This document shows positions 4,297-24,908 of a DNA stretch of 25,246 nucleotides, piece after piece. Numbering within the stretch: the first letter of the stretch is position 1; each line of letters opens with the position of its first letter. The notes beneath the pieces were generated by a model that ran no database searches, was not told the DNA's origin, and was given only the letters and a program-made list of their open reading frames with translations. Location: positions 1-25,246 of the IMG/VR virus record IMGVR_UViG_3300026518_000363; one strand, written 5' to 3'. This DNA is from a virus. A program made the position numbers and the translations under genes.

Positions 4297-4607
4297 TGAA
4301 TGCCTTCGCGGTGTCCATCGATGCTCTGTTTGCCGACGTGAACCTTGGCCTTGATGCCACCTGGTATCCGGCGGGTGGTGCGCCCGTGCCCGTCCGGGTG
4401 ATCCGCAAGGCGCCGGATGAGGTCACAGCATTCGGCGCGGCGCAGATCCTGTCGGAGACCACACTGGTCGATGTGCGGACATCCGAGATGGCTAATCCGA
4501 AGCCGGGGGATGGCGTTACCATCGGCGCCGAGGACTTCACTATCCAGGGCGAGCCGAAGCGGGACCGGGATCGGTTACTCTGGACCCTGGAACTGGTGCC
4601 GGCGTGA
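4296..4607 (+). CDS. Head-tail joining protein, FII-like
   Basis: A 103-residue protein beginning at ATG 4296 that shares one base with the capsid stop. It is beta-rich and has a KPGDGVTIGAEDFTIQGEP segment, like the head-tail joining proteins related to lambda FII and its relatives (PF05354-like) that complete the portal vertex and form the docking site for the tail. The order capsid - this gene - DUF6441-like gene recurs in Rhodobacterales prophages, as far as I recall. Function is inferred from position, size and the beta-barrel-like pattern; no catalytic motif is expected. Confidence 0.65.
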   Translation: MNAFAVSIDALFADVNLGLDATWYPAGGAPVPVRVIRKAPDEVTAFGAAQILSETTLVDVRTSEMANPKPGDGVTIGAEDFTIQGEPKRDRDRLLWTLELVPA

Positions 4608-5236
4608 AGCTGAAGATCGACTTCGAGCCTGATCTGGTGGCCATGCTGCAGGAAGAGGTCAGGGCCGGCGAGCGGGCCGTGAAGGCGGCGATGACCGAGG
4701 CCGGAGGGGACCTGAAACAGGCCTGGCGCCGGCAGATCGCACAAGCCGGTCTCGGCCACCGCCTGCCGCGCACCATCCGCAACCGCACCTATCCGCAGCA
4801 TACCGACAGCCTCGATGCCGCAGCGTTTGTCTGGTCGAACGCCCCCGAGATCATCTCGGCCCATGACCAAGGCGTGCTGATCCGCTCGAAAACGGGCTTC
4901 TGGCTGGCAATCCCGCTGCCCGCCGCCGGCAAGGGCCGTGGTGGGGCGCGGCTGACCCCGGGCGAGTGGGAAAAACGTCGCGGCATGCGCCTGCGCTTCG
5001 TCTACCGCCGGCGCGGGCCCAGCCTGCTGGTCGCAGACGGGCGGCTCAGCAGCCGTGGCCTCGGCGTGACATCGCGCTCAAAAACCGGCCGGGGCCGTGC
5101 CACGGTGCCGATCTTTCTGCTGGTCCCGCAGGTCAGGCTGCGCAAGCGGCTCGATCTGGCGCGGGATGTTGAGCGGGTGGTCGGCAAGGTGCCGCGGTTA
5201 ATCGTTGCGAATTGGGTGGAGGGACGGTTGGGATAA
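4604..5236 (+). CDS. DUF6441-like tail/head-tail completion protein
   Basis: A 210-residue protein using a GTG start that overlaps the previous stop (GTGA at 4604-4607), so the two are translationally coupled. The N-terminal helix, the AWRRQIAQAGLGHRLPRTIR segment (about 41-60) and the C-terminal RLDLARDVERVVGKVPRLIV (about 180-199) resemble the DUF6441 proteins found between head-tail joining and tail terminator genes in alphaproteobacterial prophages. The protein is strongly basic. A gp10/gpZ-like (tail completion) role is inferred from position. Its normal downstream partner, the tail terminator at 8466, is 3.2 kb away because the cargo island is inserted right after it. Confidence 0.6.
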   Translation: MKLKIDFEPDLVAMLQEEVRAGERAVKAAMTEAGGDLKQAWRRQIAQAGLGHRLPRTIRNRTYPQHTDSLDAAAFVWSNAPEIISAHDQGVLIRSKTGFWLAIPLPAAGKGRGGARLTPGEWEKRRGMRLRFVYRRRGPSLLVADGRLSSRGLGVTSRSKTGRGRATVPIFLLVPQVRLRKRLDLARDVERVVGKVPRLIVANWVEGRLG

Positions 5237-5291
5237 AACCAGCGACAGTGGACCAAACCGTTGTTCGCTGAGTTCGCTAACTTTCGTGCCT

Positions 5292-5320
5292 TTGTCTTCG
5301 CGCTTGTCGAAGTCTACATT
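5292..5320 (+). promoter_or_regulatory. Candidate sigma70-type promoter for the cargo operon
   Basis: In the only sizeable gap before the cassette, TTGTCT (5292-5297) and TACATT (5315-5320) are separated by 17 bases; each matches four of six consensus positions. A weaker alternative lies at 5344 (TTGAAA, 17-base spacer, AAAATG). The promoter would allow expression from the prophage independently of the late phage transcript. This is pattern matching only, in an organism whose consensus may differ. Confidence 0.3.
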
Positions 5321-5389
5321 TATGGCTTGCAACAACAGAATAATTGAAAGACCATTACGGGAACACAAAATGCTGATTTGAGGGATGGT

Positions 5390-5773
5390 ATGGGTAGCAC
5401 TGGCTCTGGAAGCTTCTCGGACTACCCCGGTTCGCGCCCGAAAGAGGGGGGCGAGGGAACCGGGGGTGGCGGCGCAAGTGGGGAAGATCGCTGCGCCCGC
5501 GCATTCTCTTGCGCCCTCGAAGAGGTTGAGCAGTGTGACTACTTTTCCGCGAATGGAGGCGTTCCTCCGACCAACACCGCGTTAACAATCGAGCAGCGTG
5601 GCCGGCTGTTCGCCGTCGACGCGAGCGGCCAAACCGTTGGGGCGCTGCCCACCAGATTCAACTATCTCGCAGACTGCATGGTTGCAGGCTTCACCTATGA
5701 GGGGCGCGTCATTTCATCGGCATCGGCTCCGGTTGCATCGGTCAACGTGGACTTTGCGCCGCGGACGCCATGA
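5390..5773 (+). CDS. Small Met-Gly protein with Gly/Ser-rich N-terminal tail (unknown family)
   Basis: The chosen start is ATG 5390 because GAGGGA at 5380-5385 is a ribosome binding site; an earlier in-frame TTG (5378) lies on top of it. The 127-residue product opens MGSTGSGSFSDYPG and stays Gly/Ser/Glu-rich and presumably disordered to about residue 33. A compact domain follows with CARAFSCALEEVEQCDYF (35-52), four cysteines (35, 41, 49, 96) and beta strands to the end. Met before Gly should be removed by methionine aminopeptidase, exposing an N-terminal glycine on a flexible arm. The stop overlaps the next start (ATGA 5770-5773), so it is co-produced with the kinase/transferase fusion. I do not recognise a named family. 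As I recall, QatB proteins of the QueC-containing Qat defence system also begin Met-Gly with a Gly/Ser-rich tail. A substrate or effector role for the QueC-like enzyme is inference. Confidence 0.75.
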   Translation: MGSTGSGSFSDYPGSRPKEGGEGTGGGGASGEDRCARAFSCALEEVEQCDYFSANGGVPPTNTALTIEQRGRLFAVDASGQTVGALPTRFNYLADCMVAGFTYEGRVISSASAPVASVNVDFAPRTP

Positions 5774-7101
5774 GTACTAGGCAAGACCTTCTGCTGGTCG
5801 GCGAGGTCTATGTAGATTTCACCCTTCCAAATGCAGGTGCTGAAAGTAAACTACGACTCGGCGGCATCGTTCACGCGGCCCGCGGGCTATGGGCAATTAA
5901 CGCGAAATTCTCCGTGGCCGCTGTATGCCCCGGCTATCTGGTCGCTCAGGCGCAAGCCTACCTCGAACTCTTGGGATGCAGCGAATTCATCTGGCTGGCA
6001 GAGATCAAGGGCGCACCCAACGTCATGGCGATTGGCGATCCAACCGAACTCGCGGACCAAGCCTATCAAGATATCCTGAGGGACGAAAAATCCGTCGAAT
6101 ACCGCAATGAAGTTGACGCACTTAAGACATTCAAAACTTGTCTGATTTTCCCTGGAAAGTACGACCTCACGGTCTTGAGATCCCTACTTGCCGAGGAAAT
6201 TCAGGCAAGCTTCGATATCGCCTATGATCTTCCGGACCTTCAATCGCTCTCATCGTTTAAGGGCAATATTGCCGCCATAATGACTTCTACATCGTCTCCA
6301 TTGTTCTTAGATAAAGCAGCAGAGGACTTGTCGGGCTTGTTGTCTGAATTGCGGGATCTGTCGCCGCAAGCCATTCTTCTGAAGGAAAATCGAGGCGGCA
6401 GCCGTGTGTTCGATCTTCGCGGTGACAAAGTCGACGAGATCCCGGCGCTCCTCGGCGAAACCGTCAACTCGGTCGGTGTCGGTGACGTTTATTCAGCGGT
6501 TTTCGTGTCCATGCTGGGTTCAGGCGTTATTGATGCCGGATGGAAGGCAGCGCGCGCTGCAACGTGCTATGCCCACACGACCTACCCGGACGACTTCAAG
6601 AGAGATGTCCAGCGCAGCCTCGCGCTCTCCGTCGACCAAATGCGCGGCCTAGGCGGAACAGTTCTGCCCTGGCATGAACGGCCTGCCTTCCAGATATATT
6701 TCGCCGCTCCCGATTTTTCTTACGTCGACCGCACGCAGATCGATGAAGCACTTCAAGCGCTTGCCTATCATAATTTTCGGCTTCGCCGCCCGATACAAGA
6801 GAACGGAGAGCTATCCCCACAAAGCTCGATGCATGAAATGCGAGCCGCATATCTGGGTGACTTGGGACTTTTCGAGGAGTGTGATCTTGTGTTTGCACTG
6901 CCACTGGAGCGCGATCCTGGCACTCTCGTTGAAATTGGCCTGGCTCTTGCGCTTAAGAAGCCTGTGATCACATTTGATCCGCTCAGAGAGAATACCAACA
7001 CCATGGTGATAGCGGGTAGCACCGTCTATTCGGACAAGCTCGATACCTGCCTGAACGGACTCTTCGAAGTTATGTCTAGACTAAGGGCGACATGCTCATG
7101 A
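5770..7101 (+). CDS. PfkB-like sugar/nucleoside kinase fused to nucleoside 2-deoxyribosyltransferase-like domain
   Basis: A 443-residue two-domain protein. Residues 1 to about 290 look like a PfkB/ribokinase fold: a first strand DLLLVGEVYVDFTLP, the substrate-side GG motif (RLGGIVHAARG, 29-39) and the anion-hole/catalytic motif in variant form GVGDVYSAVF (236-245, usual GAGD; Asp239 is the likely base). Residues about 305-443 match nucleoside 2-deoxyribosyltransferases: FQIYFAAPDF (307-316), CDLVFALP (371-378) and DPGTLVEIGLALA (382-394) with Glu388 where the family keeps its nucleophile. Such enzymes exchange or hydrolyse bases on (deoxy)ribosides; kinases of this fold phosphorylate sugars or nucleosides. 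The combination suggests the cassette makes or handles a modified nucleoside. It overlaps both neighbours by four bases. Both activities are inferred from motifs; the true substrate is unknown. Confidence 0.75.
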   Translation: MSTRQDLLLVGEVYVDFTLPNAGAESKLRLGGIVHAARGLWAINAKFSVAAVCPGYLVAQAQAYLELLGCSEFIWLAEIKGAPNVMAIGDPTELADQAYQDILRDEKSVEYRNEVDALKTFKTCLIFPGKYDLTVLRSLLAEEIQASFDIAYDLPDLQSLSSFKGNIAAIMTSTSSPLFLDKAAEDLSGLLSELRDLSPQAILLKENRGGSRVFDLRGDKVDEIPALLGETVNSVGVGDVYSAVFVSMLGSGVIDAGWKAARAATCYAHTTYPDDFKRDVQRSLALSVDQMRGLGGTVLPWHERPAFQIYFAAPDFSYVDRTQIDEALQALAYHNFRLRRPIQENGELSPQSSMHEMRAAYLGDLGLFEECDLVFALPLERDPGTLVEIGLALALKKPVITFDPLRENTNTMVIAGSTVYSDKLDTCLNGLFEVMSRLRATCS

Positions 7102-7718
7102 AACAGGCTGTAGTCATGGTCTCTGGCGGACTCGATTCTACGACGGTCTGCTATCTGCTGGTCAGCGAGGGGACGGAAGTTCATCCCATCTTCTTCGACT
7201 ACGGGCAACACTGTGCCGAGACAGAATGGGCGAAGGTGCAGGAAGTCCTCCCGCAGGAGGCGATGCCCCCGGAGCGACTGAATATCTCGGACATCTTCAA
7301 GGGCTCGCGATCACGGATGATCTTGGAAGCAGATCTTTGGAAGGAAGCCGTCTCTGATGATGACTTGTACCTTCCGTACCGGACGATGCTGTTCTTCGCT
7401 GTGGCCGCAGCACGTGCCCAGACGCTTCGAATCCTCAACGTCTATTCAGGTTTCATCAACAGCAATCATGCCAAGGAAATAGATTGCAGCACCGAGTTCA
7501 TGAACGGTCTTGAAGAGCTTTCCCATGGCGTTGGCGCCGTGCGCTTCCATGCGCCTTTCCGCGAGAAGACGAAGACCGACGTCGTTCGACAAGCTCTGGC
7601 GCTTGGGGTGCCTATCGGCCGAACATTCTCCTGCCAGGTGTCAAGTTCGTTTCCATGCGGGGCCTGCCCCAACTGCGTAGAGAGGCTGAATGCCTTGGCA
7701 GACGCTGGCATAGCGTAA
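7098..7718 (+). CDS. QueC-like PP-loop ATPase (7-cyano-7-deazaguanine synthase family)
   Basis: A 206-residue protein from ATG 7098, which overlaps the preceding stop as ATGA and has TAAGGG (7082-7087) at a normal distance; ATG 7092 is possible and adds two residues. It has the PP-loop VMVSGGLDSTTV (SGGLDS at 9-14), DYGQHCAETEW, and the C-terminal zinc site with Cys179, Cys187, Cys190, Cys193 (CGACPNC), as in QueC. Housekeeping QueC turns carboxy-deazaguanine into preQ0 using ammonia and ATP. There are no queD, queE or folE genes here, and the neighbours are defence-like, so a specialised role is more likely. QueC-like proteins are accessory enzymes in type IV CBASS (Cap9) and Qat (QatC); from memory, Cap9 attaches a deazaguanine to the N-terminus of the CD-NTase. 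Loss of the last step (amide to nitrile) cannot be judged from sequence alone. Confidence 0.88.
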   Translation: MKQAVVMVSGGLDSTTVCYLLVSEGTEVHPIFFDYGQHCAETEWAKVQEVLPQEAMPPERLNISDIFKGSRSRMILEADLWKEAVSDDDLYLPYRTMLFFAVAAARAQTLRILNVYSGFINSNHAKEIDCSTEFMNGLEELSHGVGAVRFHAPFREKTKTDVVRQALALGVPIGRTFSCQVSSSFPCGACPNCVERLNALADAGIA

Positions 7719-7733
7719 ATAGGAATAATTGAA

Positions 7734-8393
7734 GTGACAAGAAACCTGAACAATTCAGACGTTCTGTATGCCGCCCGGCGTATTGCCGACCATGCTGTTC
7801 GAACCGGTGTTCTGGGATCGCGCGTCGCTTTCAGACCCGTCTATAGGCACATGGGCGCCGTACTTGCTGACTCGGTCCTACAAGCCGGACTGAACTATGC
7901 GAAAGTTGTGAAGCCCCGCATTGCCTCCATTCTTAAAACCTACCCACGCGCCACAACCATGAACATCTTGATGGGGGTGATCGAGCAAGAGGGAAGCCCG
8001 AAGTTCCTGCAATGGCAGCATCGGGAGAAGGTTTCACGCTTTGACAATTTGGTCGCCTTTATGGTCGAGGCGGAAATTGATAGCACATCCGATCTGGGCA
8101 GAGCGCTACAGGACAAAAGCTTTCGGAGGGATATCCGGCATGTGAGAGGGGTCGGCCCAAAAACCGTTGATTACATGGCCTGCCTGGTGGGTATGGATTG
8201 CATCGCTGTAGATCGTCACATCCGTGGCTTTGCTGAGCTCGCCGGATTGGAGGACGGCAGTTACGATTTTCTCCGTGAAGTGTTCAGCTTTGCTGCGGAC
8301 TTACTATCAATCTCTCGACGTGAATTGGATGCGAGTATCTGGCGCTATCAGTCAGAACAAACAGCGCGACAACTATCTCTTGAGTTCATTTAG
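7734..8393 (+). CDS. Helix-hairpin-helix DNA glycosylase/lyase-fold protein (OGG-like)
   Basis: A 219-residue protein from GTG 7734 with AGGA at 7721-7724; it follows QueC by 15 bases. The middle of the protein carries an HhH-GPD signature: IRHVRGVGPKTVDYMACLVG (134-153) followed by AVDRHIRGF (158-166). Lys143 and Asp160 sit where OGG/EndoIII-type glycosylases keep their Schiff-base lysine and catalytic aspartate, 17 residues apart. There is no iron-sulfur cysteine cluster, unlike EndoIII. The family removes damaged bases from DNA and nicks the backbone. In type IV CBASS an OGG-like gene (Cap11) accompanies the QueC-like gene, which makes this pairing suggestive. It could act on modified nucleobases, on invading DNA, or be a non-catalytic partner. 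It is the last gene of the cassette. Confidence 0.72.
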   Translation: MTRNLNNSDVLYAARRIADHAVRTGVLGSRVAFRPVYRHMGAVLADSVLQAGLNYAKVVKPRIASILKTYPRATTMNILMGVIEQEGSPKFLQWQHREKVSRFDNLVAFMVEAEIDSTSDLGRALQDKSFRRDIRHVRGVGPKTVDYMACLVGMDCIAVDRHIRGFAELAGLEDGSYDFLREVFSFAADLLSISRRELDASIWRYQSEQTARQLSLEFI

Positions 8394-8465
8394 TAGCACG
8401 TGGTGTCTTCGCCTGCCTAAACGTGTTGTTGGGATCAAGCCGCCTCTCAACCTTCGGAATTCCAA

Positions 8466-8885
8466 ATGCCCACCCCCCGCGAAACCATCCTGCAGGCTCT
8501 GCTTGCGGCCTTGCAAACCGTGCCCGCGTCCATCCTGCGCGGAGAGGTGCTGCCCGAGCGCGTGCCGGCCGGTGGCCTCTTGATCCTGCGCGACGGCGAG
8601 CCGGCGGAGCCGGAGGTGACGCTGTCGCCGCTCGCCTACCACTACCAGCACCGCGCCGAGATCGAGGCGGTGGTTCAAGGCACCGACCGTGACGTCGCAT
8701 TCGACACGCTGACCGCCAGCATCGGCGCAGCGCTCGCCGCCGACCGGACGCTGGGCGGTTTGTGCGACTGGGTCGAGGCGGAGGCGCCCCGGCCCGTTGA
8801 TCTGCCCGTGGAAGGCGCTGTGAGCCTGAAGGCCGCCGTCATTCCGGTGATCCTGCACTACACCACGGCCGATCCGCTCGGCTGA
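8466..8885 (+). CDS. Tail terminator / minor tail protein (lambda gpU-like position)
   Basis: A 139-residue acidic protein starting at ATG 8466, right after the cargo island, with high-GC codon use again. It begins with a helix (PRETILQALLAALQTVPA) and contains VTLSPLAYHYQHRAEIEAVV (about 51-70), then FDTLTASIGAALAADRTLGG. This resembles the small proteins encoded just before the tail tube in Rhodobacterales prophages and GTA-like modules, which cap the tail end and join it to the head. Assignment is by position and size; sequence similarity to lambda gpU itself is not evident. Confidence 0.6.
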   Translation: MPTPRETILQALLAALQTVPASILRGEVLPERVPAGGLLILRDGEPAEPEVTLSPLAYHYQHRAEIEAVVQGTDRDVAFDTLTASIGAALAADRTLGGLCDWVEAEAPRPVDLPVEGAVSLKAAVIPVILHYTTADPLG

Positions 8886-8907
8886 TCACACATCATAGGA
8901 GAACACG

Positions 8908-9846
8908 ATGGCACGCGCCCAAGGCGCGCGGTCGCAGCTGGCGGCCGCGTTTGAAACCACCTATGGAACCGCACCGGCGTCCGGCTTCATGCAGATGCCC
9001 TTCGCCAGCGCTTCGCTGGGGGCTGAACAGCCGCTGTTGGCCTCCGAGCTTCTGGGCTATGGCCGCGATCCGCTGGCCCCGATCAAGGATGCGGTGACGG
9101 TTGATGGTGATATCAAGGTGCCGCTTGATGCCGAGGCCTTCGGCTTCTGGCTGAAGGCCGCGTTCGGCAATCCCACCACCACCGGCACCACCAACAAGAC
9201 GCACACCTTCAAGTCGGGCTCCTGGAACCTGCCCAGCATGGCGATCGAGGTGGCGATGCCGGAGATCCCGCGCTTCGCAATGTACACCGGCTGTGTGCTG
9301 GACCAACTGAGCCTGCAGATGCAGCGCTCGGGGCTGCTGACGGCGGACGTCAAGCTGGTGGCGCAGGGCGAGAATGTCGCAACCACCACGGCCGCCGGCA
9401 CGCCCACGGGCTACGCCCTGCAGCGGTTCGGGCATTTCAACGGCGCAATCAAGCGCAATGGCACCGCTCTGGGCAACATCGTCTCGGCGGACCTCACCTA
9501 TGCCAACAATGTCGAGCGGATCGAGATCATCCGCAACGATGGGCGCATCGACGGGGCCGACCCGTCCATCGCCGCGCTCACCGGCAAGATCGACGTGCGC
9601 TTCGCCGACACGACGCTGATGGACCAGGCGCTGAATGGCAGTTCGGCGTCGCTGGAATTCTCCTGGGTAATTTCGGCCAATGTCAGTCTGACCATCACCG
9701 CCCATGCCGTCTACCTGCCGCGACCGCGGGTGGAAATCCAGGGACCGCAGGGCATCCAGGCCAGCTTCGACTGGCAGGCGGCCTATGACTCCGTGGCCGG
9801 GCAGATGTGCACGGTCGTTCTCAAGAACCAGGTGGCGAGCTACTGA
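8908..9846 (+). CDS. Major tail tube protein
   Basis: A 312-residue protein with a strong ribosome binding site (AGGAGA at 8898-8903). It is rich in beta strands with Thr, Gly and Ala, contains the segment GYGRDPLAPIKDAVTVDGDI (about 50-69), a central part like SADLTYANNVERIEIIRNDG and ends with VVLKNQVASY. The pattern and the place before a G/GT-type chaperone pair and tape measure fit a tail tube subunit of siphophages. At 312 residues it is longer than lambda gpV (246), in keeping with an added domain. Two bases separate its stop from the chaperone start. Confidence 0.75.
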   Translation: MARAQGARSQLAAAFETTYGTAPASGFMQMPFASASLGAEQPLLASELLGYGRDPLAPIKDAVTVDGDIKVPLDAEAFGFWLKAAFGNPTTTGTTNKTHTFKSGSWNLPSMAIEVAMPEIPRFAMYTGCVLDQLSLQMQRSGLLTADVKLVAQGENVATTTAAGTPTGYALQRFGHFNGAIKRNGTALGNIVSADLTYANNVERIEIIRNDGRIDGADPSIAALTGKIDVRFADTTLMDQALNGSSASLEFSWVISANVSLTITAHAVYLPRPRVEIQGPQGIQASFDWQAAYDSVAGQMCTVVLKNQVASY

Positions 9847-9847
9847 C

Positions 9848-10285
9848 ATGCTGAAACTCGATCTTTCCAATGAACCCGCGTGGCTGGACCTCGGTCATGG
9901 CGTGCGGGTGTTTCTTACCCCGCTGACCACGGCAATGATGGTGGCGGCGCGGGGTGACCCGGCCGTGCAGGCCTTGTCCGAGGACGCCACCGACGAGGAA
10001 AACGCGCTGGCCTTTGCCAGGGCGCTGGCCAGGGTGGCAATCCTCGACTGGGAGGGTGTTGGCGATGCCGACGGCAACCCCATCCCCGTCAGCCCCGAGG
10101 CCATCGGCGCCCTTCTCGATCTCTGGCCGCTCTTCGAGGCCTTCCAGACCGGCTATGTGGCGAAGGGCCTCCTGCTGGAGCAGGAAAAAAACGCCTCATC
10201 GCCCTTGCCGACTGGGTCTTCGGCGGGGGCGATGGGTACTGCGACGCCTGCCCGCAAACCTGCCCCAACTGCCCGCAAGTCCTGA
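9848..10285 (+). CDS. Tail assembly chaperone, short form (lambda gpG-like)
   Basis: The 145-residue zero-frame product starts at ATG 9848. Residues 1 to about 114 form a plausible globular helical domain (for example AMMVAARGDPAVQALSED and AIGALLDLWPLFEAFQTGYV). After the A7 run the frame goes into a low-complexity Ala/Pro/Ser/Thr tail (SSPLPTGSSAGAMG, then ARKPAPTARKS), which looks like translation of another gene's frame. This is the layout expected for gpG, made alone most of the time and as a gpG-T fusion when ribosomes slip by -1. Such chaperones bind the tape measure and recruit tail tube subunits. Confidence 0.7.
   Translation: MLKLDLSNEPAWLDLGHGVRVFLTPLTTAMMVAARGDPAVQALSEDATDEENALAFARALARVAILDWEGVGDADGNPIPVSPEAIGALLDLWPLFEAFQTGYVAKGLLLEQEKNASSPLPTGSSAGAMGTATPARKPAPTARKS
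10186..10192 (+). promoter_or_regulatory. Probable -1 ribosomal frameshift site (A AAA AAC)
   Basis: The heptamer A-AAA-AAC lies in the correct phase (GAA-AAA-AAC codons at 10184-10192) for simultaneous -1 slippage, the canonical X-XXY-YYZ form. The -1 frame is open from here to TGA 10528-10530 and encodes a sensible protein, whereas the zero frame becomes low-complexity. Lambda-like phages use such a site between G and T just before the tape measure. A stimulatory stem-loop downstream was not identified by eye. Confidence 0.75.
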
Positions 10286-10530
10286 ATGCGCCGCAGACGT
10301 ATGAGGGCGTGCAGGTCTGGGACCTGGTGGGGCGCCTCGGAGGTCAGCTGCGCGTGGCCCCCTCGGGCGGGATCATTGGCTGGGACATGAGCGCTGCACT
10401 GGCATTGACCGGGGCGCTGGGTGTGCCGGGCGTTGCGGTGGCGGAACTGCTGCCCGCGATCGAGGCGGTGATGGTCGTGAAGCTCAATGAGCGGATCACT
10501 GATGCTGCCGGGGATGACGTCAGCCCCTGA
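10192..10530 (+). CDS. gpT-like C-terminal extension of the tail assembly chaperone (frameshift product)
   Basis: Read in the -1 frame after the slippery heptamer, this segment adds 112 residues to the first 115 of the upstream frame, giving a fusion of about 227. It opens RLIALADWVFGGGDG, then a four-cysteine cluster CDACPQTCPNC that looks like a small metal-binding knuckle, then YEGVQVWDLVGRLGGQLRVA and helices ending in DAAGDDVSP. The only internal ATG (10387) comes far too late to make the whole segment alone, which supports frameshift expression. In lambda the T domain of gpGT contacts the tail tube protein. Its last 11 bases overlap the 3' end of the opposite-strand vapC. Confidence 0.7.
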   Translation, partial: RLIALADWVFGGGDGYCDACPQTCPNCPQVLNAPQTYEGVQVWDLVGRLGGQLRVAPSGGIIGWDMSAALALTGALGVPGVAVAELLPAIEAVMVVKLNERITDAAGDDVSP

Positions 10531-10900
10531 CCTTCTCGATCAGGGTTACGCCGGGCAGGCCATCGAAATGCGCATCACAGGTCACCAACCCGGCGCCGTG
10601 GGCGCGGGCCGTGGCGAAGATGATCGCATCTGCCGTGGCCAGCCTGTGTTCGCGGCAGGCATCCGCTGCCGCCAGCGCGATCTCGGTGTCGAGCGGCACG
10701 ACATGGCAGACCTGGGTGAAGGCAATGACCTGATCGGCCTTGTCCTCGCCCACCTCGCGGGTCAGCCACTTGGCAAGCTCGAGCTGGACCATGGTCGGCA
10801 CCAGCCAGTCGGCTTGCTCGGGCAGATGCGCCTCGACCTTGTCGCCGGTGGGCGAGCCGATCAGCCATTCGATCCAGGCCGAGCTGTCGACGAGCACCAT
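10520..10900 (-). CDS. vapC: VapC-type PIN-domain toxin RNase
   Basis: A 126-residue PIN-domain protein on the - strand. The acidic metal-binding residues are present: Asp5 (MVLVDSSAWIEW), Glu41 (VQLELAKWL), Asp91 (ATADAIIFATA) and Asp109 (LVTCDAHFDGLPGV). VapC toxins cleave RNA, often initiator tRNA or rRNA loops, when freed from their antitoxin. Its start shares a base with the vapB stop (TGATG on the - strand), the usual coupling. It sits in reverse orientation between the chaperone and tape measure genes, so it is a moron gene unit not belonging to the late operon. It may stabilise the prophage or act in phage exclusion. Confidence 0.92.
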   Translation of the reverse strand: MVLVDSSAWIEWLIGSPTGDKVEAHLPEQADWLVPTMVQLELAKWLTREVGEDKADQVIAFTQVCHVVPLDTEIALAAADACREHRLATADAIIFATARAHGAGLVTCDAHFDGLPGVTLIEKVRG

Positions 10901-11112
10901 CAGAAGCGATCCGCGTGATCGCGGTAATCCTCAGGGTTGGCGCCCTTTGCCAGTCCCTTGAGGTCGTCCTTGTCCGGCACGGGCACCAGCAGCACGCCGG
11001 TCCCCTTGGGGATGAAGGCGAATGTCAGTCCGGCCTCCCAATGCTGGGCGCTGCGGATCGCCTTGGGGATCGAGATCTGGAACTTGGAAGACAGTCGGGC
11101 GGTTTCGGGCAT
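10900..11112 (-). CDS. vapB: VapB/AbrB-type antitoxin
   Basis: A 70-residue antitoxin. The start at 11112 is chosen because it gives the classical swapped-hairpin AbrB/MazE N-terminus MPETARLSSKFQISIPKAIR, with AGGT upstream; a longer version beginning at 11163 would run through the promoter region. Residues 1-45 form the DNA-binding dimer domain, and the C-terminal part (LKGLAKGANPEDYRDHADRF) is the tail that occupies the toxin active site. The protein normally represses its own operon with VapC. An inverted repeat directly upstream is the candidate operator. Confidence 0.88.
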   Translation of the reverse strand: MPETARLSSKFQISIPKAIRSAQHWEAGLTFAFIPKGTGVLLVPVPDKDDLKGLAKGANPEDYRDHADRF

Positions 11113-11113
11113 T

Positions 11114-11151
11114 GTCTTACCTGCGGTTGATCGTTGCCCATAACGTAAGAC
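11114..11151. promoter_or_regulatory. Inverted repeat, candidate VapBC operator
   Basis: Perfect 7-base arms GTCTTAC (11114-11120) and GTAAGAC (11145-11151) are separated by 24 bases, just upstream of the vapB start on the - strand. The arm spacing (31 bases centre to centre, about three helical turns) suits two AbrB-type dimers on one DNA face. The outer arm overlaps the proposed -10 region, as expected for autorepression. Confidence 0.5.
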
Positions 11152-11170
11152 GAATAGCCCCACATTTCAA
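11142..11170 (-). promoter_or_regulatory. Candidate vapBC promoter
   Basis: On the - strand TTGAAA (11170 to 11165) and TACGTT (11147 to 11142) are spaced by 17 bases, matching five and three of six consensus positions. It lies about 30 bases before the vapB start and overlaps the inverted repeat arm. The -10 match is weak, so this is tentative. Confidence 0.35.
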
Positions 11171-11182
11171 GGAAGCCGAACA

Positions 11183-13330
11183 ATGGCAGAAAAACGCGTC
11201 TCCGTCCGCCTGGCGGCGGTGGGTGGCAAGCAGGTGCGGGCCGAGCTGGAAGGCATCGGTGACGCTGGCAAGCGCGGCTTCGGCAAGGCCTCGCGCGAGA
11301 TGGAGATCGCCAACGCCAGGCTCGCGAAGTTTGCCCGGCGCGCAAAGATCGCCGCCGGCATCATGGCCGCCGCTGCCGTCTCGGCCGGTGTTGCCATGGT
11401 GCGTTCCGGCCTGCAGGTGATCGACGAACAGGCCAAGCTGGCCGCCAGCCTCGGCACCACGACAGAAAGCCTGCAGGTGCTGGCGCGCGCGGCCGAACTG
11501 GCGGGCGTCTCGCAGGGCGAGGTCGAGCAGGCGACGATCATGATGACGAAAAGCCTGTCTCAAGCCGCCCAGGGCACCGGGCCGGCGGTGAAGGCGCTCG
11601 AGCAACTGCACCTGTCGGCCAGCGATCTTGCCAAGCTGCCGATCGACGAGAAGCTGACGGTGATCCAGGACGCCATCCAGCGTTACATCCCCGCCGCCGA
11701 GCGCGCCGCCGTCGCCTCGCAGATCTTCGGGGCGCGGGCCGGGTTGATCTTTTCGCGCATCGACAGCGCCACCTTGCGCCAGGCGACGCAGGACGTGAAG
11801 GATTTCGGTGTCGCGGTCTCGGAACAGGACGCGGCGCAGATCCAGCGCACCAACGATGCGCTCTCGCGCATGGGGCTGCTGTGGCGCGGCATCGCCAACC
11901 AGCTGGCCGTGGCGGCCGCCCCGGCGCTCGAGGCGATGGCGGATGCCTTTGCCACGGTGGCCAAGACCACCGGCCCGCTGGGGCGCGCGATCAGGGGGCT
12001 GTTCGATCATATCGGAGAACTCACCACCATCGCCGCTACCTTCGCCGGGGTTCTCGGCGTGCGCCTTGTTGCCTCGCTGACCGCCGCGGCGTTGGGCGTC
12101 GGCAAGCTGGCGCTGTCGATGAAGGTCCTGCGCGCGGCCATTATTCGCACCGGGCTCGGTGCGTTGATCGTCGGCGCGGGCGAACTGATCTACTGGTTCG
12201 GCCGGCTGGTGAAGGGCGCCGGCGGGTTCGGGAAGGCGCTCGGGCTTCTCAAGGACGTGGCTGCCGAGGTCTGGACCCGCATTGGCGATGGCGCCTGGAG
12301 CATCGTTCTGCGCATGCGCGCCGTCGGCAATCGCCTCAAGGCCACCTGGTTCGACGCGCTCGCCACCATGCAGGACAAGTGGGCACGGTTCCTCAAGACC
12401 ATCTCCGGCGCGCTGTTCAGGATCCCCGGCATGGACGGGTTGGCGATGGATATCGGGTTCGATGCCGCCTTCGCCGGTCAGGCCGTCGATCAGCTGCGCA
12501 AGACGGCGGACGAATTCCGTTTCTACGCCGGCAATCTCGGCGACCAGGCGGATATCCTGGCCGGTAACATCTCCCGGCCGCTCAAGTCCATGACCGCCCT
12601 GCGAGACGCGATGAAGGGGGCGGGCGAGGATGGCGCGGACGCGCTCGCGCGCACCAGCGATGCCGCTTCCCGGCTGGCCACGAGTGTCGCCAACGCTGGC
12701 GGCGCGGCTGCGCGGACGGCCGAGGTGGCGAAGTCCGCCTGGGAAACGGCGGCCACATCACTGAAGGATTACGCGACAAAGGCGATGGAGCTCGGCAAGG
12801 GGCTGGGCGACACGCTGGTGAGCGCATTCTCGAGCGCCGAACAGGCCATTGGGGAGTTCGTCCGCACGGGCAAGCTGGACTTCCGGTCGCTGGTCACCTC
12901 GATCCTGGCCGACATGGCGAAGCTGTCGGCGCGCCGTTTCATACTCGGGCCGCTGGCCAATTTGCTGTCCGGCGCGATGGGTTCTTTGGGGGGCATCTTC
13001 GCGCCGGTGCTGCATTCCGGTGGCATTGCCGGAGGCGCGGCGCCCACCCGAATGGTTCCCGCTGCGGCCTTTGCCGGAGCACCGCGCATGCATTCGGGCG
13101 GCGCTGTGGGCGCTCCCACCTGGGCGGGTCTGCGACCGGACGAGGTGCCTGCGATCCTGCAGCGGGGTGAACGGGTGCTGAGCCGCCGCGAGGTAGCCGC
13201 AGGTGTCGGCGGCACACCGAACATCACCGTCAACATCAACACCCGGGACGCCGAGAGCTTCCGCCAGTCCCGCGCCCAGGTCGCAGCCGACATTGCCCGC
13301 GCGGTGTCGCTGGGCCGCAGGGGGCTCTGA
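11183..13330 (+). CDS. Tail tape measure protein
   Basis: A 715-residue protein, the longest in the core tail module after the tail tip. It begins MAEKRVSVRLAAVGGKQVRA, typical of the tape measure family of GTA-like and Rhodobacterales phages, then has an amphipathic helical region, a hydrophobic stretch (IAAGIMAAAAVSAGVAMV, about 56-73) and a long hydrophobic central zone (about 280-345). The middle and late parts are helical with heptad-like patterns and many Ala. The C-terminal 120 residues are Gly/Ala-rich with MHSGG-type turns, then VNINTRDAESFRQSRAQVAA. It sets tail length and is injected ahead of the DNA. At 715 residues, with about 1.5 angstrom per residue, the tail would be roughly 100 nm. 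It lies 71 bases from the divergent vapB. Confidence 0.88.
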   Translation: MAEKRVSVRLAAVGGKQVRAELEGIGDAGKRGFGKASREMEIANARLAKFARRAKIAAGIMAAAAVSAGVAMVRSGLQVIDEQAKLAASLGTTTESLQVLARAAELAGVSQGEVEQATIMMTKSLSQAAQGTGPAVKALEQLHLSASDLAKLPIDEKLTVIQDAIQRYIPAAERAAVASQIFGARAGLIFSRIDSATLRQATQDVKDFGVAVSEQDAAQIQRTNDALSRMGLLWRGIANQLAVAAAPALEAMADAFATVAKTTGPLGRAIRGLFDHIGELTTIAATFAGVLGVRLVASLTAAALGVGKLALSMKVLRAAIIRTGLGALIVGAGELIYWFGRLVKGAGGFGKALGLLKDVAAEVWTRIGDGAWSIVLRMRAVGNRLKATWFDALATMQDKWARFLKTISGALFRIPGMDGLAMDIGFDAAFAGQAVDQLRKTADEFRFYAGNLGDQADILAGNISRPLKSMTALRDAMKGAGEDGADALARTSDAASRLATSVANAGGAAARTAEVAKSAWETAATSLKDYATKAMELGKGLGDTLVSAFSSAEQAIGEFVRTGKLDFRSLVTSILADMAKLSARRFILGPLANLLSGAMGSLGGIFAPVLHSGGIAGGAAPTRMVPAAAFAGAPRMHSGGAVGAPTWAGLRPDEVPAILQRGERVLSRREVAAGVGGTPNITVNINTRDAESFRQSRAQVAADIARAVSLGRRGL

Positions 13331-23332: not shown

Positions 23333-23571
23333 AGCGCGATCTTCGCCTGTACGTTGCCGTTATCACGCATCATCGCCCATGAGATAGTCCCGGTTCACTC
23401 GGGCCCACCGATCCGGCAGTCTCTCGCATGAGATCCCATTCGGCGCCCGGTCGAAATGGGGGCGCGTCTGGGAGACAGATCCTACGAGTTTTGAATATTC
23501 TTGCGCTAAAACGGCTTGCATTCTCTCAACTATATTTACAGGCCATCGTTTCTCCTGTTTCGCTTCACGAC
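23333..23571. other. Intergenic debris at the prophage edge
   Basis: There is no credible complete gene. On the - strand, 23440 down to the stop at 23365-23363 reads ISCERLPDRWARVNRDYLMG and DDA, possibly the last 25 codons of a truncated gene. CATGAGAT occurs twice (23369-23376 and 23427-23434). GC falls sharply after about 23480. The first copy of the 17-base direct repeat lies here. Confidence 0.4.
23447..23463. repeat. 17-bp direct repeat, copy 1
   Basis: CCGGTCGAAATGGGGGC, identical to 23692-23708 and in the same orientation. Copy 2 sits just past the transposase fragment, where the end of an IS3-family element is expected, so this copy may mark the end of another deleted element. Confidence 0.7.
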
Positions 23572-23690
23572 ACCGTTCTCAAATTGATCGGAGGCTGGAT
23601 CAAGGACTATAATGAAAACCACCCGCACTCGGCCCTCAAGTGGCGCTCGCCCCGCGAGTTCCGAAAGGCTAATCCGAAACCGCTCAGATG
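23572..23690 (+). pseudogene. IS3-family transposase (OrfB) C-terminal remnant
   Basis: This frame encodes TVLKLIGGWIKDYNENHPHS followed by ALKWRSPREFRKA, the unmistakable end of the IS3-family integrase-core transposase (consensus WIxDYNxxHPHSALxxxSPREF). The catalytic DDE region and everything upstream are absent: the sequence before about 23566 in the same frame has no integrase features. The open frame runs from 23428 to 23841 but only this part is transposase. It is a non-functional scar showing that an insertion sequence took part in reshaping the prophage edge. Confidence 0.85.
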
Positions 23691-23691
23691 T

Positions 23692-23708
23692 CCGGTCGAA
23701 ATGGGGGC
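23692..23708. repeat. 17-bp direct repeat, copy 2 (probable IS end)
   Basis: CCGGTCGAAATGGGGGC lies right after the last conserved transposase codons and is followed by CGGTTTAG. The location fits the right terminal sequence of an IS3-family element. An inverted partner was not found in the window, as expected if the left end was deleted. Confidence 0.6.
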
Positions 23709-23716
23709 CGGTTTAG

Positions 23717-23782
23717 AATATTCCTTATCGCATAGAAGACGAACTGCCTGCTTGGAAATGCAAGAAGTGTGGAGAGATGTAA
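23717..23782 (+). pseudogene. C-terminal fragment of a small zinc-ribbon-like protein
   Basis: The frame reads NIPYRIEDELPAWKCKKCGE followed by Met and stop TAA 23780-23782. It begins against the proposed IS end, with TAG immediately upstream in the same frame. CKKCG is a half zinc-ribbon/rubredoxin-type knuckle near a C-terminus. It looks like the tail of a gene cut off by the insertion sequence. Only 21 codons support this, so it may be chance. Confidence 0.35.
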
Positions 23783-23798
23783 CCATTCGAAAGAATGG
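23783..23798. other. Perfect stem-loop after the fragment's stop codon
   Basis: CCATTC-GAAA-GAATGG: a six-base stem closed by a GAAA tetraloop starting at the base after the TAA. There is no following run of T, so it is not a standard terminator, though a weak 3'-end or stabilising role for the truncated gene's transcript is possible. Confidence 0.35.
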
Positions 23799-23915
23799 AT
23801 ATGAGGGAGCAGAATATATAGTGACCTCGCGCTCTTATTGAAAATAGCATGCCTCCATAACCATAGAACGCAGCGAGAAGATATTCGCGACATAATAGAG
23901 AAAAGGTTTAAACAA

Positions 23916-24908
23916 ATGTGTGGACTTATTGGCTTTTTCGTTGGTTGTGATTTGACTATAACATGCCCAAAGAAAAACTTGTCCAATTGCTCTCGTCGTT
24001 ATCGATCTTCCTTTCAAAATTGGGATTCACGAGCATCGGTTCGCAGCGCGCAGAGACGAACAGATCAGGTAAAATCAATGTTATTCCCGGAAAGATATGT
24101 ACCCATTTTGAGACATTCCATGATTGGGGCGCTTGACCAAAGTGCTCACGAATTGTTGCGAAAAGCAGCGCTCTACAGGTTTCTAAACTTTACACACAAG
24201 CTAGAAATTCTGGTCGTCAATACGGTTACTGCGAATATAGCCCTAGGGCGGTACAATGCGGATTTTTCGGAAAACCTTCGACTGGACGCGCACCGAATTT
24301 ACGTCGATGAAGCCTATCATGCATTGTTTTCCTTTGACCTAATGAAACGGATCAAAGCTAGCAATGTGACCTCTGACGCGTTCCACGAAGACATTCCAGA
24401 GTTTATCCGCGGCATCAATAAGCTCGTTGAAGCCCACAGCGCTAATGATCGCGCATTGCTTGAACTCACAGCTGTCATCGTTTCGGAAATGCTAATTACT
24501 AGTACCTTGCGCGAGGCCACGTTGGAGCCTGACATGGATCAGGGCGTTGCTTCGATGATTGAGGATCATGCTAGAGATGAAGCAAGGCATCATGCCTTCT
24601 ATAAACATGTTCTGCTAGATCTTTGGTCTCAACTGTCCGATCATCAGCGCAACCTCGTGCTTAGGCACATCCATCCCTTCTTGGTGGCCTATACGGCACC
24701 TGACGAACAGGCGCTTAGGACCGAATTGCGTTCTGTAGGATTGACCGAAGATCAAGCCCGTCTAGTTATTGCCGAGACCTATGATCCTCAAACCGTCTCT
24801 GAATATGCAAATGCGTGCGGCAAGGGAATTTTTGCCACGTTTGAGGAGTTGGCGGACCCACGGGACTTCGCACGCGTGTCCGAACACTTCTCTATGCTGC
24901 CCCGTTAG
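23916..24908 (+). CDS. AurF-type non-haem diiron oxygenase
   Basis: From ATG 23916 (AAAAGG at 23901-23906) the product is 330 residues. All seven ligands of the AurF diiron centre can be placed: Glu97 (KLEILVVNTV), Glu132 and His135 (VDEAYHALF), Glu191 (VSEMLITS), His218, Glu222 and His225 (DHARDEARHHAFY). Their spacings almost equal AurF (101, 136, 139, 196, 223, 227, 230). The segment YRSSFQNWDSRASVRSAQRR before them is also family-like. AurF oxidises an aryl amine to a nitro group; relatives act on other substrates, so the substrate here is open. The start is uncertain: residues 1-25 (MCGLIGFFVGCD...) do not look like the family, TTG 23838 also keeps the frame open, and an ATG in another frame (23963) gives MPKEKLVQLLSS, which could be the original start before a frameshift. 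Low GC sets it apart from the phage. Confidence 0.82.
   Translation: MCGLIGFFVGCDLTITCPKKNLSNCSRRYRSSFQNWDSRASVRSAQRRTDQVKSMLFPERYVPILRHSMIGALDQSAHELLRKAALYRFLNFTHKLEILVVNTVTANIALGRYNADFSENLRLDAHRIYVDEAYHALFSFDLMKRIKASNVTSDAFHEDIPEFIRGINKLVEAHSANDRALLELTAVIVSEMLITSTLREATLEPDMDQGVASMIEDHARDEARHHAFYKHVLLDLWSQLSDHQRNLVLRHIHPFLVAYTAPDEQALRTELRSVGLTEDQARLVIAETYDPQTVSEYANACGKGIFATFEELADPRDFARVSEHFSMLPR

Follow-up and report, generated by a model that had tools for sequence, protein, structure and literature searches.

The window analyzed here, a 25,246-nucleotide stretch of viral DNA covering positions 1 to 25,246 of IMG/VR record IMGVR_UViG_3300026518_000363, carries a four-gene QueC cassette on its plus strand at positions 5390-8393, where the original prediction, made from the sequence alone, had placed four overlapping or adjacent genes. 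The first gene (5390..5773, +, ATG start) specifies a partner protein of 127 amino acids, probably the substrate of modification, with the N-terminal tail MGSTGSGSFSDYPG, a glycine-rich linker, and a predicted HIRAN-like domain at about residues 32-127. The second (5770..7101, +) encodes a 443-amino-acid fusion of a PfkB-like kinase, with the GxGD aspartate Asp239, and a nucleoside 2-deoxyribosyltransferase-like (NDT) domain with Glu388. The third (7098..7718, +) specifies a QueC-like PP-loop ligase of 206 amino acids that exhibits SGGLDS, YGQH, PYR, KEIDC in place of YPDC, and four zinc cysteines, and the fourth (7734..8393, +, GTG start) a helix-hairpin-helix (HhH) glycosylase-fold protein of 219 amino acids that matches the PADLOC 8-oxoguanine glycosylase (OGG) model and holds the invariant residues Lys143 and Asp160. 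ATGA overlaps join the partner gene to that of PfkB-NDT and the latter to queC, a 15-nucleotide gap separates queC from the HhH gene, and a Shine-Dalgarno-like GAGGGA (5380..5385, +) lies ahead of the ATG at 5390. We refer to this arrangement as type A.

Conservation of the type A cassette

A search of 84,980 species genomes with the PfkB-NDT protein as bait yielded 87 confirmed matches, 80 of which were kept; a pattern filter makes these figures a lower bound. Viral contigs and plasmid records raised the total to 91 loci, which were not dereplicated, and profiles were run on stop-to-stop frames. The order small protein, PfkB-NDT, QueC, and HhH glycosylase, on one strand, recurs across the 91 loci, with the small protein in 90, PfkB-NDT in 91 (largely by construction), QueC in 89, and the HhH protein in 85. 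Because the identical gene order recurs in 91 loci, the cassette is not a product of chance, and the four genes are indeed found together on viral contigs, on plasmids, and in genomes unrelated to one another, as would be expected if the original prediction held. The small protein is missing from L038, whose contig begins within the cassette; both QueC and the HhH protein are missing from L075 (contig end) and L078 (unrelated sequence breaks the PfkB-NDT frame). The HhH protein is also missing from L082, where QueC is cut short, and from L105, L107, and L108, and its frame is split in two in L058. At these last three missing-HhH loci, all from Bacillaceae, PfkB-NDT is naturally fused to QueC (L105:6983-8965, L107:6986-8956, and L108:6983-8965) downstream of the small partner, and no HhH match was obtained; such a fusion suggests sequential chemistry on one substrate.

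Record titles place the cassette in Pseudomonadota, Bacteroidota, Lachnospiraceae, Bacillaceae (Bacillota), Planctomycetota, TM6, and Acidobacteriota-type metagenome-assembled genomes (MAGs), the phylum names being partly our own attribution. Eighty loci belong to bacterial genome assemblies, and plasmid records add to these. Over 69 dereplicated loci, the four proteins have correlated pairwise distances (r 0.78-0.96), as is expected of a jointly inherited unit.

The small partner, its enzymes, and their sister arrangements

Relatives of the small protein were aligned as stop-to-stop frames, so that the motif could not arise from the start codons chosen (58 rows less than 80% identical; the broken or cut cassettes L058, L075, L078, and L082 left out of the counts). 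Gly2 and Tyr12 are invariant (58/58 each), followed by Ser3 (56/58), Gly7 (55/58), and Asp11 (54/58). The Met1 column holds M in 84 of 87 rows and V, from GTG, in three, and the columns immediately upstream are unconserved; one variant, L054, has a GTG start followed by sequence without the usual motif. The commonest residue has a mean frequency of 0.80 over residues 2-12, 0.43 over 13-31, and 0.51 over 32-127. Among relatives, a Shine-Dalgarno-like 4-mer precedes 57 of 89 MG starts versus 13 of 103 internal in-frame ATGs. AlphaFold2 assigned low confidence to the tail and a pLDDT of ~80-94 from residue 31 onward. Foldseek placed HIRAN domains at the top (4xzg, 9.4e-4), and VIA comparison of the model gave Z 11.9 for lp_0118, Z 10.2 for the HLTF HIRAN domain (root-mean-square deviation [rmsd] 1.8 over 84 residues), Z 9.0 for Rad5, and Z 7.9 at rmsd 5.1 for the C-terminal domain of HamB. 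The Pfam HIRAN profile PF08797 returned nothing for the window protein and matched 2 of 59 members, at best with 0.14; scans of the small protein with Pfam, PADLOC, and NCBIfam gave no match, and its profile found S-layer and CNF matches only among PDB sequences. As modeled, the partner is an invariant N-terminal glycine tail, a disordered linker, and a HIRAN-like body.

Protein-nucleobase conjugation is demonstrated for type IV cyclic oligonucleotide-based antiphage signaling systems (CBASS), in which Cap9 modifies the MGGS terminus of the cGAS/DncV-like nucleotidyltransferase (CD-NTase), and proposed for Qat, which needs the MGTS terminus and G2 of QatB for defense, according to two reports (PMC13279940, PMC11996544). 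The partner matches these N-terminally modified companions of QueC enzymes in architecture, which makes it a likely substrate. The invariant MG tail and the HIRAN-like fold thus suggest by analogy that the small protein is probably itself modified. The original prediction was right about the presence of a Met-Gly small protein and left it unexplained.

Residue counts for the three enzymes omit the cut or broken cassettes L038, L058, L075, L078, and L082. PfkB-NDT matches PF05014 at 1.4e-13 and the Pfam PfkB family at only 0.098; Asp239 and Glu388 are each conserved in 87/87. QueC matches PF06508 (9e-33) and the PADLOC QueC model (3.4e-27), and a profile search of the PDB retrieved QueC 2pg3 (7.5e-24), Cap9 9nto (7.1e-21), and QueC 3bl5 (2.8e-19). 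Its residues S9, G11, D13, S14, Y35, Q37, H38, E43, P93, and R95 are present in 87/87, as are D129, C130, K159, and the zinc ligands Cys179/187/190/193, and G10 in 86/87. The HhH protein matches PADLOC OGG at 6e-5, with Lys143 and Asp160 in 84/84; Pfam gives no glycosylase match for the window protein, and phmmer against the PDB was uninformative. The residues that the original prediction had singled out (HhH Lys143/Asp160, NDT Glu388, the zinc cysteines, and the PP-loop) are therefore conserved throughout save for one PP-loop glycine, and the likeness that it had drawn to accessory enzymes of type IV CBASS agrees with the PADLOC QueC and OGG matches, whose models we take to be those of that system.

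All 87 type A QueC proteins carry K126-E127-x-D129-C130 in place of YPDC, with Glu127 at the Tyr position, whereas YPDC is present in 11 of 11 canonical QueC proteins examined. For Cap9, the Tyr of YPDC is described as stacking on the base and the Asp as reading its Watson-Crick edge (PMC13279940). By these residue roles, type A keeps the guanine-reading Asp129 and loses the stacking Tyr. Types A and B and canonical QueC separate in a tree of 46 QueC proteins (support 100/99, 100/100, and 93/83, respectively), which leaves out one canonical row and carries a long-branch warning on the join of type A with type C.

Type B, a sister arrangement, was examined at 21 loci (13 plasmid records and 8 viral contigs), ten of which served to build its small-protein profile. 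In all 21, the PfkB-NDT gene is immediately preceded by that of a small protein and immediately followed by that of QueC; the fetched stretch also holds an HhH 8-oxoguanine-glycosylase-like gene in 13/21, with a PF22175 Ogg-HhH match at 5.7e-13, and a gene resembling nitroreductase in 10/21. Among the hosts are Pseudomonas, Citrobacter, Synechocystis, and haloarchaea, and TIR genes occur close to two type B cassettes. Profile alignment relates the small proteins of types A and B to each other (hhalign probability 95.2). The type B model reaches Z 11.6 with lp_0118 and Z 9.0 with HLTF in VIA, and Foldseek gives 9.6e-3 as the best match and 1.3e-2 as the best HIRAN match, so that this partner appears HIRAN-like too, more weakly than that of type A. 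The signature CH(x)5CxxCxGCxK of QueC Cluster 4, as defined by Libby et al., is found in 6 of 8 type B QueC proteins examined, two haloarchaeal ones being without it, and type B appears by sequence to fit that cluster. One locus holds a tandem pair of type B small-protein/PfkB units (L123:4642-8330). On a Roseivivax plasmid, a VUT-family transporter gene (L026:7991-8530; PF02592, 1e-9; annotated as queuosine salvage) lies downstream of the type B cassette.

Type C comprises two Rhizobium/Agrobacterium plasmid operons (L114:4995-9357 and L115:4953-9364) with genes for PfkB, a protein resembling TIR and tRNA-guanine transglycosylase (TGT) domains, Ogg-HhH (PF22175, 9.7e-25), QueC (1.5e-38), and a small TIR protein. 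The TIR-TGT-like protein matches TIR_2 at 4.8e-13 and TGT at 0.0014, which is under the Pfam cut-off, and the NDT half has no Pfam match. The small TIR protein starts with MGGGSSGSW and matches ThsB_TIR at 9.4e-26; by analogy, the operon suggests N-terminal modification of a TIR protein. Types A to C place QueC enzymes next to Met-Gly or Met-Ser partners of two folds besides CD-NTase and QatB.

Phage context and host pathways

The window encodes a portal, a head maturation protease, a major head protein, a tail terminator, and a tape measure (PHROGs). The cassette is cargo inside this tailed-phage head-tail module, between a phrog_6367 gene of the head-tail region (4604..5236, +) and the gene of the tail terminator, phrog_4204 (8466..8885, +), and we infer that the carrier phage is probably temperate. 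G+C content is 0.53-0.61 in the 1-kb blocks of 5001-9000 versus 0.63-0.72 in other blocks up to 23,000. The interval between the two flanking genes is a cargo hotspot in related viral contigs (L206-L285), where it holds varied genes over 14 bp to ~3.2 kb. Among the best 80 of 381 contigs found via the left flanking gene, 72 have both flanks, with intervals of 14-3,231 bp, two of them nearly empty (14 and 20 bp). The cassette is present in one of the 72 (L232) and in L230, whose contig stops ahead of the tail terminator; the previously found carriers L001, L006 (the contig of L232), and L007 have intervals of 3,231-3,242 bp. Other cargo, as read by eye, presumably consists of toxin-antitoxin, GNAT, and P-loop NTPase genes. 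A tblastn search of 50,697 phage records with the window PfkB-NDT gave zero matches, and one with a type B PfkB-NDT hit 14 records in the NDT part only, none reaching 80% query coverage.

Upstream of the cassette, an element CTTGCAACA...GACCAT (5326..5355, +) is partly kept even where the cassette PfkB-NDT is 67-68% identical, and is a possible promoter or operator; a promoter/terminator scan found no excess over shuffles. The element is present twice at L034:4250-4474. Elsewhere in the window, an antisense pair between tail genes (10520-11163, -) resembles a PIN toxin/AbrB antitoxin by eye, its first member being phrog_9972 (PHROGs, unknown function). The low-GC end (23428-24908) holds an IS3-transposase-like fragment and a diiron oxygenase-like open reading frame (ORF), both read by eye, and is perhaps host or inserted DNA.

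The substrate of Cap9 is 7-carboxy-7-deazaguanine (CDG). In a survey of 50 of the 80 carrier genomes, QueD (PF01242) had no match in 12, canonical-strength QueC (>180 bits) in 25, and QueE (at least 38 bits) in 12; all three were without a match in 10, and in an eleventh (G047) a doubtful 38-bit hit to QueE stands alone. Judging by their titles, several of these ten genomes come from isolates, and L101 is titled a complete genome; the absences are to be read with the caveats that a divergent QueE could evade a single model and that other genomes are drafts or MAGs. With 10 or 11 of 50 hosts showing no QueD, QueE, or canonical QueC, host-made CDG is unlikely to be obligatory. The 7-deazaguanine-type base of the original prediction is thus not established, given both these hosts and the loss of the stacking Tyr. 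Neither queD nor queE had a match within 60 kb on the cassette contig in the 50 genomes (folE was not searched for), as anticipated for a unit separate from queuosine operons. TGT (PF01702) occurs in 50/50 hosts and also in 14/14 control genomes, which amounts to no enrichment; in none of the 50 genomes did it match closer than 50 kb to the QueC gene of the cassette on the same contig, a range limited by short draft contigs. Since every host has TGT, salvaged 7-deazaguanines are one possible source of the base; we infer from the host genomes that the cassette may supply it via PfkB-NDT or use a commoner purine.

Within the retrieved sequence, a dGTPase gene accompanies 13 of 94 type A loci and 3 of 21 type B loci (16/115) versus 0/20 control regions, which would fit deoxyguanosine as a source and may be chance. 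Six of the type A loci concerned (L047-L050, L074, and L079) closely resemble one Rhizobium query. Specificity of these neighbors to Bacteroidota was considered and rejected, since one of the 13 type A loci is titled Bacteroidales.

Proposed function and relation to known systems

On balance, we lean toward regarding the cassette as a mobile QueC-partner system, probably antiphage, that travels as the cargo of a tailed and probably temperate phage. A role in defense is suggested by the relatives of its genes and by its mobile context. The QueC-like ligase would most likely join a guanine-type base to the partner glycine. Upon removal of the initiator Met, Gly2 of the partner would enter the QueC-like active site, where the enzyme, with ATP, would activate a guanine-type base (Asp129, the residue that reads the Watson-Crick edge in Cap9, is retained) and attach this base to the amine of Gly2, in the manner of Cap9 acting on CD-NTase. 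The base would be drawn from nucleosides or nucleotides via the PfkB kinase and the NDT glycosidase, not necessarily from host CDG; the HhH glycosylase might in addition release it from DNA. Base-removing glycosylases are described as phage defense in the case of Brig1-3 (PMC13160076). The HIRAN-like domain could then deliver the base-bearing tail to stalled forks or DNA ends, so that phage DNA is marked or blocked and the lysogen protected. The two steps at the partner terminus are the best supported and this last one the least.

Several observations weigh against such a system. The stacking Tyr is replaced by Glu127, a loss of this Tyr that QatC shares, and the base or the chemistry may therefore differ from that of Cap9. 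Type B partners mostly start with MS (MSG), with few MGG, one MSS, and one MCG. The likeness to HIRAN is one of fold only and does not imply DNA binding. The cassette shares its strand with the structural genes, which leaves expression in the lysogen an assumption. PADLOC families number 224 in 120 neighbor ORFs (of 240 extracted; 20 loci) versus 28 in 111 control ORFs (20 arbitrary regions), an enrichment that is only suggestive, as many models match a single protein and the tally itemizes only 25 families, and the association with dGTPase genes is indistinguishable from chance.

Other functions can be envisaged for these genes. NDT-like enzymes are effectors in some retron systems, and PfkB-NDT might accordingly be a toxic effector that destroys the nucleotide pool upon infection once released by a QueC-modified HIRAN-like sensor. 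The invariant Glu388 and PfkB Asp, together with the nucleotide-depleting dGTPases near some type A and B loci, speak for this; we nonetheless find it doubtful, as the natural PfkB-NDT-QueC fusion suggests sequential chemistry and not a separate effector, and in type C the NDT half has no Pfam match while QueC persists. Rather unlikely, in our view, is salvage of purines or 7-deazaguanines, in which a nucleobase would be recycled by PfkB-NDT together with the QueC-like enzyme and the small protein would act as carrier or regulator. A kinase paired with a glycosidase has the logic of salvage, a VUT-family transporter gene follows the Roseivivax type B cassette, and every host, having TGT, may use 7-deazaguanines, yet so may all the controls. 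It is also the printed reading of the sister Cluster 4, whose PfkB-PF05014 neighbor is called a likely purine-salvage enzyme by Libby et al. 2026 (PMC13329287). Salvage leaves unexplained the Met-Gly tail, the HIRAN-like fold, the HhH glycosylase, and carriage by phages and plasmids, and neither queD/queE nor TGT is linked to the cassette over the distances surveyed in the 50 genomes, within the limit set by short draft contigs.

Some phages use QueC-derived 7-deazaguanines in DNA, and carriage by a phage would suit a DNA-modification or antirestriction module that places a deazapurine in the phage's own DNA. This is very unlikely and was rejected, as the window has no queD match and the four cassette genes include no transglycosylase; the HhH enzyme would take bases out rather than insert them, and the cassette also resides in plasmid records and in the 80 bacterial-assembly loci (some of which may be prophages). 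We give least credence of all to biosynthesis of a peptide-nucleotide natural product of ribosomal origin whose core would be the MG tail: a nitroreductase/SagB-like flavin mononucleotide protein does accompany the 10 type B loci mentioned above (PF00881, 2.3e-8), but the folded domain is conserved together with the tail, and no peptidase or exporter was noticed in annotation tables, which were not searched by profile.

Beyond the antiphage QueC-partner system favored for type A, it is conceivable, and for now tentative, that types A to C represent a modular immune class of bacteria and archaea in which a QueC-like ligase loads a salvaged base on interchangeable Met-Gly/Met-Ser partners and base release is the infection signal. 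The partners would then be TIR proteins in type C and, in types A and B, readers of DNA ends with a HIRAN-like fold, and the base might come from nucleosides or phage DNA independently of host CDG. If base transfer to the type A partner is real, conjugation would become a general immune chemistry, extended to a third family that is phylogenetically broad and has a DNA-end-type partner, and a set of QueC proteins currently classed with purine salvage would be relabeled. The module is small and testable, with one partner, one ligase, and one tail, and hosts devoid of QueD and QueE make base identity testable.

Literature searches recognized no paper on the four-gene system, the small partner, its HIRAN-like fold, the HhH gene, type A, or the TIR version, and a passage of a 2023 review names Qat and type IV CBASS as the sole systems with QueC (PMC10952713). 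The pairing of QueC with PfkB-NDT is already in print for the sister family (PMC13329287). The original prediction knew of no described system of this composition. Its view that the base-exchange domain takes the place of the TGT-like enzyme is a possibility; overall, its observation is confirmed and its interpretation partly supported.

Assignment to canonical QueC (preQ0) and queuosine operons was rejected on a TIGR00364 score below cut-off (102.4 versus 150.3 bits), the changed YPDC, the lack of linkage to queD/queE within 60 kb, and the separate clade. QueC Cluster 4 shares the PfkB-NDT partner enzyme with the window family, whereas type A QueC has CQ(x)6CxxCxNC, in the window SCQVSSSFPCGACPNCVER, instead of the Cluster 4 signature and forms its own clade; the accessible main text on Cluster 4 (PMC13329287) mentions neither a small partner nor an HhH glycosylase and reads purine salvage. 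The C-terminal domain of the partner shares its fold with the HIRAN domains of HLTF, Rad5, and HamB of Hachiman; it differs from them in sequence (~8-15% identity), escapes the sequence profile, and belongs to a small protein that stands alone and has a conserved tail at its N terminus.

Qat likewise combines a QueC-family enzyme that has lost the YPDC Tyr with a non-CD-NTase partner bearing a disordered tail and an N-terminal glycine motif. Its QatC, however, is an enzyme of ~400 amino acids with extensions, as opposed to 206 here, and its QatB is helical. The cassette was rejected as Qat on this size, on a score of 24 bits against a cut-off of 280 for NCBIfam QatC, and on the absence of QatA and QatD matches among its proteins (in PADLOC, QueC and the HhH protein match QueC and OGG only).

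In agreement with the predicted lack of a CD-NTase, the SMODS profile PF18144 found none in the window (families outside PF18144 were not sought). It matched in 8 of 50 carrier genomes, on other contigs in seven and ~2 kb from the cassette QueC on the opposite strand in L091; the latter gene (near 10069-11253, -; 7.9e-19) does not start with Met-Gly and probably belongs to a neighboring system. PDLC00910, used to look for type IV CBASS loci, has four matches in 274 genomes of one class, one of them in the type A genome G015, and the remaining three loci, which are short, have no match to the cassette profiles. Type IV CBASS proper (Cap9 QueC-like, Cap10 TGT-like, and OGG) was rejected because the cassette operon contains neither a CD-NTase nor a TGT-like gene; the cassette further differs in its HIRAN-like partner, the addition of PfkB-NDT, and KEIDC for YPDC. 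What the two have in common is a QueC-like ligase, an HhH/OGG-like protein, and a glycine-rich Met-Gly terminus on the partner.

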